From Aquipuribacter hungaricus (GTDB lineage: Bacteria > Actinomycetota > Actinomycetes > Actinomycetales > JBBAYJ01), in NCBI RefSeq assembly GCF_037860755.1, contig NZ_JBBEOI010000006.1:1-49666 (forward strand): DNA of 49,666 bases, read 5' to 3'. Positions within the stretch are counted from its first letter, which is position 1. Each line of letters begins with the position of its first letter. Made by a program: the position numbers and the translations under genes. The notes beneath the pieces were generated by a model. The model worked only from the letters and a program-made list of their open reading frames with translations, had not been told where the DNA came from and did no database searches. Shown one piece after another: positions 24,055 to 46,393 of this stretch.

Positions 24055-24339
24055 TCAGCCGAGCTTGCGGGAGCCGAAGAGCAGCACCTCGCGCTCGAGG
24101 TCGTAGTAGGCCTCGTCGCTGGCCGAGAGCCAGTCGAAGAGGTTGTCGGCGTCGTCGACGGTAACGCTGAGGACGACCTCGCTGGCGCCGTTGTCCAGGA
24201 CAAGCTGGAACAGGTAGCTGCCGGGCTCCCCGGGCCCAGACGGGGAGAAGTTCGGCTGCCAGGCGGTGACCTTGCGGGTCTTGATGACGCTCTTGCCGAG
24301 GTCGCTGGCGCCCGGGCCCTGCTCAGTTGACGTAGTCAT
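24055..24339 (-). CDS. Conserved hypothetical protein
   Basis: 94 residues, no family recognised. An acidic, mixed alpha/beta-looking small protein: KVTAWQPNFSPSGPGEPGSY, FQLVLDNGASEVVLSVTVDD, ADNLFDWLSASDEAYYDLER, VLLFGSRKLG. Coding quality is good (strong GC3, sensible composition), and the ATG at 24339 is the only good start. No signal peptide or membrane helix. It lies between the hydrolase and a decayed kinase region on the same strand. Confidence 0.7.
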   Translation of the reverse strand: MTTSTEQGPGASDLGKSVIKTRKVTAWQPNFSPSGPGEPGSYLFQLVLDNGASEVVLSVTVDDADNLFDWLSASDEAYYDLEREVLLFGSRKLG

Positions 24340-37516: not shown

Positions 37517-38158
37517 GTGTCGTTGGTCGGGTACGCGAGGGTGTCGACGCGGGACCAGCATCCCGACGCGCAGACCGACGCCCTGGCCGCGGCCGGCTGC
37601 GAGAAGGTCTTCGTCGACCACGCCTCGGGGACCCTGGCCGCGCGGACCGCGCTGGGCGAGGCGCTGGGGTACCTGCGGGCCGGGGACACGCTGGTCATCA
37701 CCAAGCTGGACCGGCTGGGCCGGTCGGTGCGCAACCTCAAGCAGCTGTCCGATGAGCTGCAGGCCCGGCAGGTCGGGCTGCGGGCGCTGTCGCAGGGCAT
37801 CGACACCACGACGCCGGGTGGTCGGCTGTTCTTCCACATGCTCGCCGCGATCGCGGAGTTCGAGCACGACCTGATCGTGGAGCGGACCGTCGACGGTCTG
37901 GCCGCGGCCCGGGCCCGGGGCCGCAAGGGCGGGCCGAAGTTCAAGATGACGCCCAACAAGATCGCCCAGGCCCGGGCGATGTACGACGGCGGGAAGCACA
38001 CCGTGCAGGAGATCGCCGACACCTTCGGGGTGTCCCGGCCCACGATCTACCGCCACCTAGGATCGGCCCCACGGCCGTCCGCCGGTCCTGTGATGGGGTT
38101 CTCGGGACCGGCGGGCGCGCCGTCGACCGCACCCCCCGCCGCGCCTCGGGGGGCCTAG
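37517..38158 (+). CDS. Serine recombinase (resolvase/invertase family)
   Basis: About 213 residues. Catalytic domain: LVGYARVSTRDQHPDAQTDA with the nucleophile Ser, VFVDHASGTLAARTALGEAL, DTLVITKLDRLGRSVRNL and LRALSQGIDTTTPGGRLFF. A C-terminal Hin-type helix-turn-helix follows (TVQEIADTFGVSRPTIYRHL), then a Pro/Ala tail. Small resolvase/invertase, likely from a Tn3-type or similar element. GTG at 37517 and TTG at 37523 are both possible starts; GAGGG is better spaced for the TTG. The ATG at 37481 is less family-like. No transposase accompanies it. Confidence 0.92.
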   Translation: MSLVGYARVSTRDQHPDAQTDALAAAGCEKVFVDHASGTLAARTALGEALGYLRAGDTLVITKLDRLGRSVRNLKQLSDELQARQVGLRALSQGIDTTTPGGRLFFHMLAAIAEFEHDLIVERTVDGLAAARARGRKGGPKFKMTPNKIAQARAMYDGGKHTVQEIADTFGVSRPTIYRHLGSAPRPSAGPVMGFSGPAGAPSTAPPAAPRGA

Positions 38159-39708: not shown

Positions 39709-41010
39709 TCATGCCCGTCGTGGTTCGGCTGCCGGGCCCTCGTTCCTCGGCGCCGTCATGCTGCGGGGGTCGAGGGCGAAGGACACGCGGCCTCGTCCCG
39801 TGTGCTTGACGTCGTAGAGGGCTGCGTCCGCTTGTTCGAGAAGGCTGTGGAGCTGGTCGCCGTCTCTGGGGTAGCTCGCCAGCCCTACAGAGGTCGTGAT
39901 GCGCAGCGGCAGTTCCAGGCCGGGAGCCTCGATCGCCAGCTCAGCGGTCGCGGCGCGTAGGCGCTCACCCGCCTCGGCCACCGCGGCCCGCCCGGCCTGG
40001 GGGAACAGGACGACGAACTCGTCGCCACCGAAGCGACCCACGAGGTCGCTGTCACGAACGGCGCTCGTGAGTGCTTTGGCCGTGGCTTTCAGCACCTCGT
40101 CGCCCAGCAGGTGGCCATGCGTGTCGTTGACCGTCTTGAAGTGGTCGATGTCGACGACGGCGACACCCATGGGCTGATTGGACGACCTGCTGAGGGCGAG
40201 CTCTCGCTCGGCGCGGTCGCGCCACCCCGACGAAGAAGCGACTCCCGTCTTGGGGTCACGTGCCAGGGCGGTGACGAGTTGGCGGTGCTGGAGGCCGCGC
40301 TGCAAGAGCATCGCGATGGGCACACCCGCCGCCACCAGGAAAGGGTCCATCGACCCTGCCACTCCGATGAGGGTTCCGAGCGCGCACTGCGCCAGGGCGC
40401 CGCGCCAGTCGAAAGCCAGCTCCCGGAACGGTCGCCAGCCGACCCCACCGTGTGCGGAGACCACCGACCCCAGAAGGAACGACTCGGCGAGGTGCATGAC
40501 GGCGAAACCGGCGAGGGCAGCAACGAGGAGACCGCCCTGGTACGCGCCAAGCGGCGAGGCCGCGTAGGTCTGGATCACCACAGCGGCTCCCGTCGAGGAC
40601 AGCACCACCATGGAGATGTTGAAGACCACCCGGTGCAGCGGGATCCGGACACGGTCAGACGTGCTGAAGGCGTCACGGACGGAGACCAGGAGGGAGAGCG
40701 CGACCGCAAGCGCCACAACACCCGGCAACGGCGCCGCGACGACAGCGGCGAACACCCAGACGCTGTCGGTGCTGACCGTGATCTCGACCCGGTCCGTGCG
40801 CGCGCGCGATTCCGTCCTCCCGATGCCCACGTTGATCACCTCGGTGACCGCGCAGGCCATCGCGAGGACGCTCACCAGGAGCCAGCCGGTCTCGTCCGAA
40901 GTGGTCCCCACCGCGACCACTGCCATCACGGCTGCGGCAATGATCGTGAGTACGGTCGCCCGGGCCGCGCGCGGGAGCCCCCAGAACTCCCAGGAACGGA
41001 TGGTGGTCAC
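39709..41010 (-). CDS. Membrane diguanylate cyclase (GGDEF)
   Basis: About 433 residues. The N-terminal ~250 contain seven or eight hydrophobic helices (VLTIIAAAVMAVVAVG, VWVFAAVVAAPLPGVVALAV, GGLLVAALAGFAVMHLAE and others), resembling MASE-type sensor regions. The GGDEF domain is complete: RDPKTGVASSSGWRDRAE, VVDIDHFKTVNDTHGHLLGD, GRFGGDEFVVLF. The I-site RDSD (RxxD) is present, so product inhibition is expected. It should make c-di-GMP. GTG at 41010 was chosen; the frame runs to 41148. A perfect GCCGATAA lies 8 nt upstream, so transcription may start almost at the start codon. Confidence 0.92.
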   Translation of the reverse strand: MTTIRSWEFWGLPRAARATVLTIIAAAVMAVVAVGTTSDETGWLLVSVLAMACAVTEVINVGIGRTESRARTDRVEITVSTDSVWVFAAVVAAPLPGVVALAVALSLLVSVRDAFSTSDRVRIPLHRVVFNISMVVLSSTGAAVVIQTYAASPLGAYQGGLLVAALAGFAVMHLAESFLLGSVVSAHGGVGWRPFRELAFDWRGALAQCALGTLIGVAGSMDPFLVAAGVPIAMLLQRGLQHRQLVTALARDPKTGVASSSGWRDRAERELALSRSSNQPMGVAVVDIDHFKTVNDTHGHLLGDEVLKATAKALTSAVRDSDLVGRFGGDEFVVLFPQAGRAAVAEAGERLRAATAELAIEAPGLELPLRITTSVGLASYPRDGDQLHSLLEQADAALYDVKHTGRGRVSFALDPRSMTAPRNEGPAAEPRRA

Positions 41011-41018
41011 ATCCCGCC

Positions 41019-41026
41019 TTATCGGC
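41019..41026 (-). promoter_or_regulatory. FliA-like -10 box before the GGDEF gene
   Basis: On the minus strand this reads GCCGATAA, the exact sigma-28 -10 consensus. The expected -35 (TAAA or TCAA 15 nt upstream) is not present (TGGT instead). The box ends 8 nt before the GTG at 41010, which would give a leaderless or nearly leaderless transcript. Confidence 0.45.
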
Positions 41027-41056
41027 TCACGGCCCCGGCGCACCACGGGAACAGGG

Positions 41057-41118
41057 CGCGTCTCACCCGGGCGGGCTAGGGCCTCCAGACCGACACACGA
41101 GTCGAGGGATGAGACGCG
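41057..41118. repeat. Spaced inverted repeat CGCGTCTCA / TGAGACGCG
   Basis: CGCGTCTCA at 41057-41065 and TGAGACGCG at 41110-41118 are exact 9-bp reverse complements, 44 bp apart, upstream of the minus-strand GGDEF gene. Possible regulator site. The core TGAGAC recurs at several other intergenic places nearby. Confidence 0.5.
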
Positions 41119-41293
41119 TCGCCCGAGTAGGGGAGGGGCGTCCCGCACAGCGCCCGTTCCCGGTGACGAGGTGCGGGCGGGGCTACTGAGACGGGTCGCT
41201 CCGCCTCGACCGAGTCAGGCCGGCGACCTGGGGCGCTGTTAGTGGGGGCCCGTCATCCGGGGTACCGCTGGCGTTTTCGCGTAGTCCGACGCT

Positions 41294-41320
41294 TAAGAGT
41301 GTTTTGCTCACTGTCGATGG
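41294..41320 (+). promoter_or_regulatory. FliA-like promoter of the EAL-HDOD gene
   Basis: TAAG at 41294-41297, 15 nt, then GTCGATGG at 41313-41320, against the sigma-28 pattern TAAA-N15-GCCGATAA. Transcription would start near 41327, the GTG of the gene, again suggesting a leaderless message. Confidence 0.45.
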
Positions 41321-41329
41321 GGTCGCGTG

Positions 41330-42571
41330 ATGTCAGTTGCCACTCCTGGGGCTCCCGCGGCGCAGCTTCGTGCTGTGCGAGTTGGTCGTCAGGCCATACA
41401 CCGCGCCGGAGGTGGGGGTGTTGCCGGGTACGAGCTGCTGTTCCGGCAGTCGTCGGTCGACACTTTGGTCGATGAGGCCGCGCACGAGGCCGCGACCGCT
41501 CAGGTCATCAGCGCCGTGTTCGGTGAGTTCGGGGTCGCGAACCTTGCCGGGGACCTGCCGTTGTTCGTCAACACCACGCGGGCCTTCCTTGTGGGTGATA
41601 TCCCGCTTCCCGACGACCCCGAACGGCTGGTCATCGAGGTCCTGGAACATGTGTTGCTCGATGCCGAGGTCCTCGCCGGCATCGTCGCCTTGAAGCGGGC
41701 GGGCTACCGGATCGCCGCCGATGACTGGGACGGCACCAGGTCCCGTGATGGGCTGCTGCCGTTGTGCGACGTCGTGAAGATCGACCTGTCGGCCGTTGGA
41801 CATGCCGCGCTGCCGGGTCTCATCGCCGATGCTCGGAGGCTTTCCCCGGGTGTCAGCGTCTGTGTCGAACGAGTCGAGACCGCCGAGGACGCCGGGCTGG
41901 CCGAGGCTGCCGGGGCCGTGCTGCTGCAGGGCTTCTACCTTGATCGGCCACAGACTCGCACGACCCGCACCCTGACCGCATCTGAGGTGACGTGCCTGCG
42001 GTTGCTGGGTGCCCTGGCCAGTGAGGCGGACACCGGTGAGCTCGTCCGGCTGGTCAGTTCTGATCCTGGTTTGGCGATGCAGGTGCTCCGCATGGCGGCC
42101 AGTCCTGCAGGCGTCGGCCGGCCGGTGGCCTCGGTGAGTCAGGCCGTGGTCCTGCTGGGCCCCCGCAAGCTCGGTTCCTGGCTGGTGCTCGTGCTCTTAG
42201 GTGGTGCCTCGCGCGCATCCCGCGAGCACGTCGTCGCTGTCTTGGCTCGAGCTGGGGCCTGCGCTCTGCTGAGCCCGAGCAGCCGTGACGCTGCGTTCAC
42301 GGCCGGGCTGCTGTCGGCGGCGCTTGAGCTGCTGGGAGGTGAGCCCGCTGACGTCATGAGGGACAGCGGCGCCGACCCGGCGATAGCCGACGCCGTCCTA
42401 CGCGGGGGCGGGCCCGTAGGAGCCGCCCTTCAGGCAGTGATAGCCCACGAGCGCAACGACCCCGCGGCTGCCCTGAGCACAACTCATGACCCGTACACCG
42501 TGTCCCGTGCAGTTCTGCAGGCCGTTGTTGGCGCGAGGGCCGTCGCCGAAGCCATGAGCGACGAGCGGTGA
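41330..42571 (+). CDS. Degenerate EAL plus HDOD domain protein
   Basis: About 413 residues, YuxH/CdgJ-like. EAL-like domain ~20-205: VGRQAIHRAGGGGVAGYELLFR, RLVIEVLEHV, IAADDWDG, DVVKIDLSA, GAVLLQGFYLDRPQ. The EAL signature is ELL, and DDFG is DDWD, so phosphodiesterase activity is unlikely. HDOD domain ~215-400: LLGALASEADTGELVRLVSS, DPGLAMQVLRMAAS, VASVSQAVVLLGPRKLGSWL. Such proteins act as c-di-GMP or protein-binding adaptors, several of them in motility control. GTG 41327 and ATG 41330 are adjacent. Sits among GGDEF, EAL and chemoreceptor genes. Confidence 0.9.
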   Translation: MSVATPGAPAAQLRAVRVGRQAIHRAGGGGVAGYELLFRQSSVDTLVDEAAHEAATAQVISAVFGEFGVANLAGDLPLFVNTTRAFLVGDIPLPDDPERLVIEVLEHVLLDAEVLAGIVALKRAGYRIAADDWDGTRSRDGLLPLCDVVKIDLSAVGHAALPGLIADARRLSPGVSVCVERVETAEDAGLAEAAGAVLLQGFYLDRPQTRTTRTLTASEVTCLRLLGALASEADTGELVRLVSSDPGLAMQVLRMAASPAGVGRPVASVSQAVVLLGPRKLGSWLVLVLLGGASRASREHVVAVLARAGACALLSPSSRDAAFTAGLLSAALELLGGEPADVMRDSGADPAIADAVLRGGGPVGAALQAVIAHERNDPAAALSTTHDPYTVSRAVLQAVVGARAVAEAMSDER

Positions 42572-42732
42572 GCCGGACCGCCAACGGGGCGCTCGTGGTG
42601 CGCGAACGGCGGGCCCGCTCGGTTGTTATCGGCCGAGTGCACCGGACGCCGGTGAGCTGTGCGGCGTTCGCCTGCACCGCGGTTGGCGAACAACTCCCGT
42701 GCGAAGCCAGCATCCGGTTGGCCCACTGAAGA

Positions 42733-42759
42733 TAAAGAAGCAGCACCTGTTGCCGATGA
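42733..42759 (+). promoter_or_regulatory. FliA-like promoter of the DUF1059-EAL operon
   Basis: TAAA at 42733-42736, exactly 15 nt, then GCCGATGA at 42752-42759. This matches the sigma-28 pattern TAAA-N15-GCCGATAA at 11 of 12 positions. It ends 41 nt before the GTG of the small gene. No competing start lies between. Confidence 0.7.
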
Positions 42760-42800
42760 ATCGCAGCGGCGATACGGCTCGACAGAAGAGGGAGTGAAAC

Positions 42801-42974
42801 GTGAAGCGTTTCCGTTGTGGTGATGTGATTCCCGGATGCACGGCGCAGTTCGCCGGCACCGAAGAGGATATCCTCGCGCAGGTTGGGGCGCACGCCCGGC
42901 GCGACCATGGGGTGGCCGACGTGGGGCCGGAGCTGGTCGTCAGCGTCCGGGCGGCGCTGCAGGACGTTCACTAG
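42801..42974 (+). CDS. DUF1059 family small protein
   Basis: 57 residues. It opens KRFRCGDVIPGCTAQFAGTE and continues DILAQVGAHARRDHGVADVG, PELVVSVRAALQDVH. The FRCGDVxPGC start and the AHARxDHG helix are the hallmarks of DUF1059, small cytoplasmic proteins of unknown function. The two Cys and two His could bind metal, which is inference. GTG at 42801 has GGGAG about 6 bp upstream. The stop is followed two bases later by the ATG of the EAL gene, so the two form one operon under the FliA-like promoter. Confidence 0.88.
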   Translation: MKRFRCGDVIPGCTAQFAGTEEDILAQVGAHARRDHGVADVGPELVVSVRAALQDVH

Positions 42975-42976
42975 GG

Positions 42977-44101
42977 ATGTCCACTGAGCGGCGCGCGTCG
43001 GCGGCGCACGGTGCCCCCGGGCTGGGGGTGCCTGCACAGGCCGGCCGGCCGGTGCCGGTGCCGGTGCCGGCACCGGCACCGGCGGAGGCGGTTCGCGGGG
43101 TACGTGAGGACCCGGCCGCGTTGAGTCTGGTGGCGCAGCCGATCGTGGACCTCGCCACGGGTGAGGTGGCCGGGTATGAGGCGTTGGCCCGGCTGCCCGC
43201 GGCGTGGGGTGTCGCGCCGGACGTCTTCTTCGCCGAGGCCCACCGGGTGGGGTGTTCCGCGCAGGTGCAGGCGTTGGTGTGCGCGGCGGTGGTGGACCTG
43301 CTGCCGTCTCTGCCGGTGGACACGTTCCTCACCTGCAACGTGGACCCCAGCGACCTGGCCACCGAGGAGGCCATCGCCCCGCTGCTGGAGCAGCACTCGT
43401 TGTCGCGGCTGGTGGTGGAGGTCACCGAGCACGCTTGGCCTGAGGACCCGGCCCCGGTCGACGCGGCCTTGCGGCGGCTGCGTGCCAAGGGGGCGTTGGT
43501 CGCGGCCGACGACGTCGGGGCGGGCTATGCCGGGCTGAACCAGCTGATGCGGTTGCGGCCGGACCTGGTCAAGGTCGACCGCGCCTTGGTGGAGAACCTG
43601 GGCACCGACCCGGCCGCGGAGCTGCTGGTCAAGGTGCTCGGTGAGCTGTGCAGCCACCTGGATGCATGGGTAGTCGTGGAGGGCGTGGAGACCCAGACCC
43701 AGCTGGCGGCACTGGCCCGCCTCGGGGTCCCGCTCGGGCAGGGCTGGCTGCTCGGGCGACCTGCGCCGCCCTGGGCGCCCTCGGCGGCCGTCGACCTGGT
43801 CCGTCGCCGGGCGGCGATGGCGGTCGTGGAGGAGACCATCACCCCGCTGCTGGACACGAGCACCGTGCCGCACGTGCGTGACGCCGTCGGCCGGTGGTGG
43901 CTGCTGGCCGCCGAGGGCGCGCAGCCCGCGATGACCATGGCCCCGTCGACGTCGGTCGTCGAGGCTGCGGCCCGCGCGGTGGCCCGCCCGCCGGATCAGC
44001 GCTGGACCCCCGTGCTGGTGACCTCCCGTACCGGTGACGTCATCGGCCACGTCAACGTCGAGGCCCTTGTGCTGGCCCTGACCCGCACCGCCCGCCCCTG
44101 A
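42977..44101 (+). CDS. EAL-domain c-di-GMP phosphodiesterase
   Basis: 374 residues. After a ~45-residue linker containing a Pro-Val/Pro-Ala repeat comes a full EAL domain: AQPIVDLATGEVAGYEALARL (EAL), DTFLTCNVDPSDL (Asn), LVVEVTEHAW (Glu), VAADDVGAGYAGLNQLMRL (Asp pair), DLVKVDRALV (Lys), WVVVEGVETQTQL (Glu) and GQGWLLGRP (Gln). All expected catalytic residues are seen, so it should degrade c-di-GMP. The C-terminal ~100 residues look like an extra ligand-binding or CBS-like region (LVTSRTGDVIGHVNVEALV). Starts 2 bp after the DUF1059 stop; no membrane helices. Confidence 0.93.
   Translation: MSTERRASAAHGAPGLGVPAQAGRPVPVPVPAPAPAEAVRGVREDPAALSLVAQPIVDLATGEVAGYEALARLPAAWGVAPDVFFAEAHRVGCSAQVQALVCAAVVDLLPSLPVDTFLTCNVDPSDLATEEAIAPLLEQHSLSRLVVEVTEHAWPEDPAPVDAALRRLRAKGALVAADDVGAGYAGLNQLMRLRPDLVKVDRALVENLGTDPAAELLVKVLGELCSHLDAWVVVEGVETQTQLAALARLGVPLGQGWLLGRPAPPWAPSAAVDLVRRRAAMAVVEETITPLLDTSTVPHVRDAVGRWWLLAAEGAQPAMTMAPSTSVVEAAARAVARPPDQRWTPVLVTSRTGDVIGHVNVEALVLALTRTARP
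43054..43083. repeat. 30-bp perfect palindrome inside the EAL gene
   Basis: Repeats of GCCGGT on the left and CACCGGC on the right form 15-bp arms that are exact reverse complements with no spacer (centre between 43068 and 43069). It codes for the VPVPVPAPAPA linker. Confidence 0.9.
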
Positions 44102-44299
44102 CCAGGCCGCTTCCGTCAGGGCGGCCTCCGCTGACATGCGGTCCCTGCGTCGGGCACGCGGGCTGTCGGTCGATGCTGCGGTGCCGCTCAAGGGTGTCCT
44201 GGCCCGTGACGACATCGGGTGCGGCCCACTGCCTGCTAGAGGGCATCAGCCAAACCCCGCGCCCGGGGTCGAAGTCACCCGAAGGACGAGGAAACCACG

Positions 44300-44569
44300 A
44301 TGAGCAGCGAACACGCCGGCTCCAGCACCCGTGACGGGATCGCTCTGCTGATGGCCGCGATGCGTGACGACCCCGTGGCAGTCGCGCTGCTGCTGGAGGA
44401 CTGGAGTGCGAGGCAGACCCGGGACGTCGCGGTGTTCTGCGCCTACCTCGCTGCCGGGCACCTCAAGGCGGCAGAGACCCAGCACTCCCAACCGGGACTG
44501 TACGACGCGGCCCTGCACGACGTCGCCCTGCAACTCGCCGCCACCGGCCGCACCACCCTGACCGAGTAA
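44300..44569 (+). CDS. Hypothetical small protein in the chemotaxis/c-di-GMP block
   Basis: 89 residues, mostly helical: GSSTRDGIALLMAAMRDDPV, AVALLLEDWSARQTRDVAVF, CAYLAAGHLKAAETQHSQPG, YDAALHDVALQLAATGRTTL. No known family. The ATG at 44300 has GAGG 8 bp upstream, and codon use is strong. No signal peptide or membrane helix. It lies between the EAL gene and the chemoreceptor, all on the plus strand, with a 200-bp gap on each side. Confidence 0.7.
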   Translation: MSSEHAGSSTRDGIALLMAAMRDDPVAVALLLEDWSARQTRDVAVFCAYLAAGHLKAAETQHSQPGLYDAALHDVALQLAATGRTTLTE

Positions 44570-44585
44570 TCCTCCCGCAGCCCCC

Positions 44586-44612
44586 TCAACTTTGCGGCGG
44601 CTGCGCCGATCA
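44586..44612 (+). promoter_or_regulatory. FliA-like promoter of the chemoreceptor gene
   Basis: TCAA at 44586-44589, exactly 15 nt, then GCCGATCA at 44605-44612. This fits the sigma-28 pattern, in which actinobacterial motility promoters often have TCA at -35. It would give a ~145-nt leader before the ATG at 44762. Confidence 0.65.
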
Positions 44613-44761
44613 AGACGTGGCTGCTCCGGCTCCCGTTACGGAGCGATACACCCTCGAACGGTCACCCTCATCACCGTCACTGCCACACGTCGACCTGTCG
44701 GTCGATCGTCCTTTTCGTCCCAACCTCACCGCGCCCCCGCGCCCCCTGTTCAGGAGTCCTT

Positions 44762-46393
44762 ATGAGCATCACCGCCGCCGACCGTCACGAGGGTCTTGCT
44801 GTCGAGCGGTCCCGCCGTCGCGGATCCCGCCTGCTGAGCTGGTCGTTGCCGGTGAAGATCGGCGCGCAGGTCGCGGTGACCGGGCTGGCGTTCGGGGTGA
44901 TCCTGGTCAGCAACACGGTCATCAACGCGCAGCGGACCGAGGCCAACGCCGCCCAGCGGCAGGCCACCTCGGTGGTGGAGCACGTCCTGGGGCTGGAGGT
45001 CGCCAGCCAAGAGGTCAGCCAGGCCGTTCTGCTAAGCGTGGTCGACCCGGCTGCTTCCGCGTCGCGGTACGAAGAGGCACTGGCCCACCACACCGAGGCT
45101 GTTGAGGCGACGATGTCCGACGGTGAGGCCGCGCAGAACGAGCAGCTGGACACTCAGCTCGCGGGTCTGGCTGAGCAGGACGAGGCCTTCTTGGTCGAGG
45201 CCGACCGGTTCGTCGCCCTCGCCGGCAGCGAGCCCGCTGCCGCCGCCGCCGAGGTCGACACCATCAGCGTGTCACAGCAGGCCTACACCGACTACCTGGG
45301 TGAGCTGGAGTCCACCTTGAAGGAACGTGAGGCCGCCGCCACGCAGGCCGCCACCGCCGCCGGAGCGCTGGCCGCAACCGTGCTGTGGATCTCCTCAACC
45401 GTCGGGCTGCTGCTGGCCGGGGTGGCGGCGTTCGTGCTGTACCGCACCACCGGCCCGGCCCTGCTGAGCACCGTCCGCGCGCTGGAGACCCTCGCCGCCG
45501 GTGACCTACGGGTCAACGCCGAGCTCGGCCGCACCGACGAGGTCGGCCGGATCGGCACCGCCGTCGACGCCCTCGCGGTGAGCCTGCGCACCTCGCTGGG
45601 TCAGGTACAGGCCGGCGCCGGGCAGCTGTTCTCCTCCGCCGAGCAGCTCAACTCCGGTGCGAGCGAGGTCGCCGCCGCCGCGGACGAGTCCAGCCAGCAG
45701 GCCAACGTCGTGGCCGCGGCCGCGGAGCAGGTCACCCGCAACGTGCAGACCGTCGCCGCGGGTGTGGAGGAGATGGGCCAGTCCATCCGCGAGATCGCCC
45801 ACAACGCCCAAGAGGCCGCTCACGTGGCCGGAGACGCCGTCACCGTGGCCGGTGACGCGAACACCATCGTCACCCGCCTCAGCGAGTCCAGCCAGCTCAT
45901 CGGCGAGGTCGTCCGCGTCATCACCACCATCGCCGAGCAGACCAACCTGCTGGCCCTCAACGCCACCATCGAGGCCGCCCGCGCCGGAGAGGCCGGCAAG
46001 GGCTTCGCCGTGGTCGCCACCGAAGTCAAGGAACTCGCCTCCCAGACCAGCAAGGCCACCGACGACATCGGCAAGCGGGTCGCGGCGATCCAGGCCGACT
46101 CCGGTGACGTCGTCGGCGCCATCGACACCATCCAGACCACGATCGGGCGCATCCACGACATCCAGACCACCATCGCCTCCGCGGTGGAGGAACAGACCGC
46201 CGTCACCGCCGAGATGGGCCGCTCCCTGGCCGAAGCCGCCGCCGGCTCCGCCGAGATCGGCGCCGGCATCACCGCCGTCGCTGCCGCTGCCGAACAGTCC
46301 TCCGCCCAGGCCCAGACCAGCGCGGAGTACACCCGCGGCCTGACCAGCCTCAGCCAGGAACTGAACAGCACCGTGGCCCGGTTCACCCTGTGA
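44762..46393 (+). CDS. Methyl-accepting chemotaxis protein
   Basis: 543 residues. Membrane helix 1 ([21 protein letters not shown]) is followed by a ~150-residue helical sensor region, helix 2 ([24 protein letters not shown]), a HAMP domain ([17 protein letters not shown]) and a long coiled-coil signalling domain. The hairpin tip reads [20 protein letters not shown] followed by [18 protein letters not shown], the CheA/CheW contact site, so it is a true chemoreceptor. The sensor is a four-helix bundle type with no known ligand pocket. ATG at 44762 has AGGAG at 5 bp. Preceded by a FliA-like promoter. No CheA/CheW genes in the window. Confidence 0.97.

Follow-up and report, generated by a model that had tools for sequence, protein, structure and literature searches.

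Promoters of flagellar-clade sigma factors upstream of genes for enzymes of cyclic diguanosine monophosphate (c-di-GMP) metabolism are already known from gammaproteobacteria and from the WhiG regulon of Rubrobacter. In Escherichia coli, YhjH/PdeH is a FliA-controlled phosphodiesterase. A report on Pseudomonas putida describes a comparable arrangement, in which the flagellar sigma factor FliA drives BifA, a c-di-GMP phosphodiesterase that favours swimming (PMC5300878). In Rubrobacter radiotolerans, the promoter of an actinobacterial flagellar-clade sigma factor (TAAA / GCCGATAA) precedes several diguanylate cyclase and phosphodiesterase genes (PMC8325347), and the motile actinobacterium Actinoplanes missouriensis, as far as its zoospore regulon is recounted in PMC11064477 and PMC8325347, has three FliA-family sigma factors that direct flagella genes. 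Work on c-di-GMP in actinobacteria has used non-motile species, and flagellated species carry more c-di-GMP enzymes (PMC10746217); c-di-GMP control of swimming is nearly unstudied in actinobacteria. Here we analysed a contig of Aquipuribacter hungaricus (the window: all 49,666 nucleotides (nt) of contig C6, in a draft genome of 4.3 Mb and 547 contigs) in which a first-pass annotation had proposed a signalling block composed of a GGDEF gene, an EAL-HDOD gene, DUF1059-EAL and a chemoreceptor gene, each under a sigma-28-like box. This genome encodes flagellin, ten chemoreceptor signalling domains and two flagellar-clade sigma factors, and it offers a concrete list of c-di-GMP genes with a flagellin-type promoter.

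Judging from the promoter sequences, the DUF1059-EAL and chemoreceptor units of the window, probably together with EAL-HDOD, quite likely belong to a dispersed regulon of a flagellar-clade sigma factor that would also include flagellin, fliM, cheA, most chemoreceptors and a few other c-di-GMP enzymes. The whole genome, not only its intergenic regions, was searched for TAAA-N15-GCCGATAA with at most two mismatches, as in Schumacher et al. (PMC8325347), and 11 sites were obtained. The DUF1059-EAL box, with one mismatch, is the best match and stands alone at that level; the chemoreceptor box is one of the ten with two. The presence of such boxes before motility genes elsewhere, for which the first-pass annotation had suggested a search, was borne out: seven of the sites are correctly oriented and lie less than about 160 nt upstream of a motility, chemotaxis or c-di-GMP gene, namely the two units just mentioned, a PAS-chemoreceptor gene (C30), an EAL gene (C82), cheA (C110), fliM (C199) and a response regulator gene (C319). 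Random placement would give this outcome with P < 1e-12, assuming 100-200 such genes, and would put two of the 11 sites inside 6.7 kb of the window with P of about 1e-4. The pattern TMA-N16-GCCGATNA occurred 13 times genome-wide, compared with 2 times for the reversed control; flagellin and, on C322, a MASE1-like GGDEF gene joined the list through it. No match to TMA-N15/16-GCCGATAA, a pattern with a perfect -10 element, was found anywhere in the genome, and thus the perfect consensus is not in use here.

To avoid circularity, the candidate promoters were also scored with a matrix trained only on ten flagellin promoters (one of A. hungaricus itself, nine of related genomes) and run over the 250 nt upstream of each gene. 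The 98th, 99.5th and 99.9th background percentiles of this model are 12.3, 15.3 and 17.1; the background consists of chosen contigs (a gene scan of 0.27 Mb) and is biased towards motility loci, a bias from which the genome-wide pattern counts are free. The gene starts rest on a simple G+C-frame caller and could be a few codons out. The flagellin gene of A. hungaricus carries TCAG-N15-GCCGATCA, whose -10 element ends 51 nt before flagellin, and the flagellins of related genomes display the same box consensus. The chemoreceptor box scored 19.1, above the 99.9th percentile, and the DUF1059-EAL box 15.8, above the 99.5th; elsewhere, fliM reached 19.7, the C322 GGDEF gene 18.2 and cheA 14.4, and strong boxes were observed at six of the ten chemoreceptor genes. 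All four strings listed in the first-pass annotation are present at the stated places (Table 1), but only these two are strong, whereas the EAL-HDOD box is borderline (12.8, about the 98th percentile) and that of the GGDEF gene lies at background level (6.7, about the 75th percentile).

Table 1. Features of the block and related loci; positions refer to the window unless a locus is given.
Feature	Position	Strand	Details
Membrane GGDEF diguanylate cyclase	39709..41010	-	GTG at 41010; PF00990 E=8.9e-41
GCCGATAA string before the GGDEF gene	41019..41026	-	no -35
Possible flagellar-type promoter of EAL-HDOD, TAAG-N15-GTCGATGG	41294..41320	+	9 nt before ATG (near-leaderless)
EAL-HDOD protein, 413 residues	41330..42571	+	PF00563 E=3.1e-9; PF08668 E=1e-9
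Predicted sigma-28-class promoter of the DUF1059-EAL operon, TAAA-N15-GCCGATGA	42733..42759	+	-10 end 41 nt before start codon
DUF1059 protein, 57 residues	42801..42974	+	Pfam PF06348 E=2.8e-20; 72.7 bits, gathering score 21.1
Predicted EAL c-di-GMP phosphodiesterase, 374 residues	42977..44101	+	PF00563 E=5.5e-46
Protein of no known family, 89 residues	44300..44569	+	no Pfam/NCBIfam match
Predicted flagellar-type promoter of the chemoreceptor, TCAA-N15-GCCGATCA	44586..44612	+	sequence match
Methyl-accepting chemoreceptor, 543 residues	44762..46393	+	PF00015 (MCPsignal) E=1.2e-31; HAMP
89-residue/chemoreceptor pair, window	44300-44762		
89-residue/chemoreceptor pair, second copy	L142:3987-6145		
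89-residue/chemoreceptor pair, third copy	L142:9427-12196		

The domain calls made in the first pass (GGDEF, EAL plus HDOD, DUF1059, EAL, and HAMP plus MCPsignal) were confirmed by profile matches. However, what had been listed as DUF1059-EAL contains both domains in two separate genes and not in one protein; the EAL start lies 2 nt after the DUF1059 stop, so the two proteins are probably co-translated. In DUF1059, residues C6, C13, H31 and H36 are invariant in 21 relatives, and its structure model, of two strands and two helices, is confident (predicted local distance difference test 93.6), making it likely that the protein is a C2H2 mini-protein that would bind zinc. Comparison of DUF1059 with solved structures yielded no meaningful sequence match and no significant fold match. 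The EAL protein, whose structure model matches the EAL structures 3n3t and 8arv, keeps the catalytic residues E68, N121, E148, D178, D179, K199, E235 and Q255, all invariant in 21 relatives, and by these residues it is predicted to be a catalytically intact phosphodiesterase. Residues 272-374 form a further conserved C-terminal domain lacking a Pfam match, which in our own reading may resemble half of a CBS pair.

Of 43 loci, about 31 have DUF1059 next to this EAL family, in either gene order; they include loci from Myxococcota, Cellulomonas aerilata and Micromonospora pattaloongensis. Three pairs occur in the genome of A. hungaricus, on C6, C30 and C96; the pair on C30 (L062:846-1013) shows no strong flagellar box, and that on C96 (L063:1-117) has its upstream region beyond the contig end. 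The literature searched, which covered few subscription journals, mentions DUF1059 twice, both times incidentally, and contains no dedicated paper on the pairing, which appears to be unstudied. Its recurrence with an EAL phosphodiesterase predicted to be intact is the newer point of this analysis, and it gives DUF1059 a testable partner in the adjacent enzyme. Unlike the gammaproteobacterial phosphodiesterases driven by FliA, the EAL protein described here has neither membrane nor GGDEF domains, shares an operon with DUF1059 and comes from an actinobacterium. In cells making flagella, the flagellar-clade sigma factor would transcribe flagellin, fliM, cheA, the chemoreceptor genes and a few c-di-GMP enzymes; by lowering c-di-GMP, the EAL phosphodiesterase would promote swimming, as BifA does in P. 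putida (PMC5300878), and DUF1059 may tune or position the enzyme as a small zinc-binding partner.

A strong box precedes the orthologous pair in four other loci (L021, from M. pattaloongensis, L088, L096 and L025), compared with a chance expectation at the 99.5th percentile of about 0.2 among 41 loci. Box scores of at least 13 before the pair were found in 5 of 19 flagellated genomes and 1 of 21 genomes without flagellin, a difference that is suggestive only (Fisher P=0.08). Three observations weigh against the proposed regulon. The first-pass annotation had made its case depend on boxes before orthologous genes, and on this the evidence is divided: in spite of the four strong cases, no box is present before the closest DUF1059-EAL orthologue (71% identical, in G001, a genome of the same genus), although the flagellin of G001 has the consensus. 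Many genomes that lack flagellin also contain DUF1059-EAL, whose role therefore extends beyond motility, and there are two flagellar-clade sigma factors in the genome, so dependence on FliA is not established. Based on these box comparisons, the predicted regulon membership of DUF1059-EAL is real here and evolutionarily labile. A more speculative reading, somewhat less likely than not, is that DUF1059 is a dedicated zinc-binding partner of a family of EAL phosphodiesterases, conserved in either gene order across Actinobacteria and Myxococcota, and that in some flagellated lineages the pair was recruited to the flagellar regulon, which would place c-di-GMP removal in swimming cells under the control of a zinc protein.

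Concerning which sigma factor reads the boxes, a FliA-like sigma gene is located on C49, directly upstream of flagellin, with 158 bits to the FliA/WhiG subfamily, below the curated cut-off of 190, and the sigma factor encoded on C243 is clearly a WhiG (416 bits, cut-off 343; E=7e-111 to Streptomyces venezuelae WhiG). Considering that WhiG and FliA have a promoter specificity in common and that 5 of the 12 mapped WhiG promoters of R. radiotolerans precede diguanylate cyclase or phosphodiesterase genes (PMC8325347), the boxes could be read by this WhiG orthologue in place of the FliA-like factor, as part of a regulon like that of Rubrobacter with cyclase and phosphodiesterase genes among its targets. 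We regard this as possible but as the less probable assignment, given that the same box stands at flagellin, fliM and cheA and that the FliA-like sigma gene adjoins flagellin. In Rubrobacter, the targets are type IV pili and the sigma factor is under RsiG and c-di-GMP, whereas here the box is common to flagella and chemotaxis genes, and the twin RsiG motif was not found in the genome with a strict-codon DNA pattern, other codons not having been searched. That pattern gave two matches, whereas its reversed control gave four; in one of the two, Thr replaces Ser, and the other is isolated within a frame that contains stop codons. By this strict pattern, then, a c-di-GMP switch acting on WhiG is not in evidence.

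A further reading is that the block is a linked system in which a c-di-GMP maker, a degrader, an adaptor and a receptor are inherited together and act as a unit. The units are adjacent in A. hungaricus and two strong flagellar boxes lie within 2 kb, but the block recurs in none of the other genomes examined, and consequently the linked system is not supported: no locus of the relatives, compared for the units other than the GGDEF gene, holds more than one of these units, in G001 and G002 the EAL-HDOD gene sits inside a dnaK-grpE-dnaJ operon, and the GGDEF gene is without the flagellar promoter. We therefore consider such a system extremely improbable; the block is a neighbourhood, not a system. 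It is also very unlikely that the boxes are chance matches before constitutive genes, in view of their rarity genome-wide and the clustering of matches before motility genes, even though a chance match probably does account for the GGDEF box and the EAL-HDOD box is borderline by itself.

The GGDEF protein of the window keeps its GGDEF motif and an RxxD I-site (RDSD), as read from the sequence. A flagellar promoter of its gene was rejected because of the background-level score and the missing -35; TGGT stands at the -35 place and the AA of the box overlaps AAGG, a possible ribosome-binding site, so the GCCGATAA string is probably not a flagellar promoter. With the promoter of this gene unsupported, the proposed co-expression of a maker and a degrader within the block is not borne out, and it is a different GGDEF gene, on C322, that has a box.

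A flagellar promoter before EAL-HDOD in the window is probable in terms of its sequence, and a motility role for the protein is plausible. The -10 element of this box equals that of the best flagellin-upstream site in the relative G012, TCAG-N15-GTCGATGG. Of 297 genomes searched in the order, 58 contain orthologues, and in other families these stand in flagellar or chemotaxis clusters, between flgB-like and chemotaxis genes in G012 and beside cheY and cheX-like genes in G027 and at L163/L167. Several orthologues carry TCAG-N15-GCCGTTGN or TCAA-N15-GCCGATGC; the former occurs at a similar position in many members of one family, which are close relatives and not independent cases. In the two genomes of the same genus, G001 and G002 (L176:11029-14501, L177:7990-11452), EAL-HDOD is flanked by grpE and dnaJ within a dnaK-grpE-dnaJ-hspR-like operon, and the window gene is placed elsewhere. 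Boxes before these two genes were set aside, as grpE immediately precedes the gene and the string falls at the gene junction.

The gene of the 89-residue protein, which the first pass had counted within the block, occurs three times in the genome. Every copy stands immediately before a chemoreceptor gene, with a flagellar box separating the two, and equivalent boxes are found at the two paralogous loci. The gene is a neighbour of the chemoreceptor and not a partner of DUF1059. Only one weak relative was detected in 198 genomes of the order, and the flagellin-only model showed no convincing box upstream of the gene itself. The leader of the chemoreceptor gene gave no Rfam match over threshold for a structured RNA or c-di-GMP riboswitch.

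With respect to other genes bearing the box, that of the MASE1-like GGDEF gene on C322 (L140:1327-1353) is strong and ends 7 nt before its GTG, which suggests a near-leaderless transcript; the fliM box likewise ends 7 nt before the fliM start. CheA on C110 (L137:6904-9252), with its own flagellar-type box, contains an MshEN-like c-di-GMP-binding motif (NF053729, 40.3 bits, cut-off 38) at residues 151-203, between the Hpt and dimerisation domains; its first RLG motif has another residue in place of the arginine. Fusions of MshEN with CheA have been mentioned before (PMC5013675), and no MshEN-like stretch was visible by eye in CheA of G012 and G027.

A serine recombinase, resolvase-like by eye, is encoded at 37517-38158 of the window, about 1.5 kb upstream of the block. 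The GGDEF/EAL-HDOD part has a G+C content of 0.68, compared with 0.70-0.75 for most of its surroundings, pointing to possible acquisition or rearrangement. Finally, a 94-residue orphan protein occurs twice in near-identical form, at 24055-24339 of the window and at L142:18726-19001, near the C11 chemoreceptor cluster.

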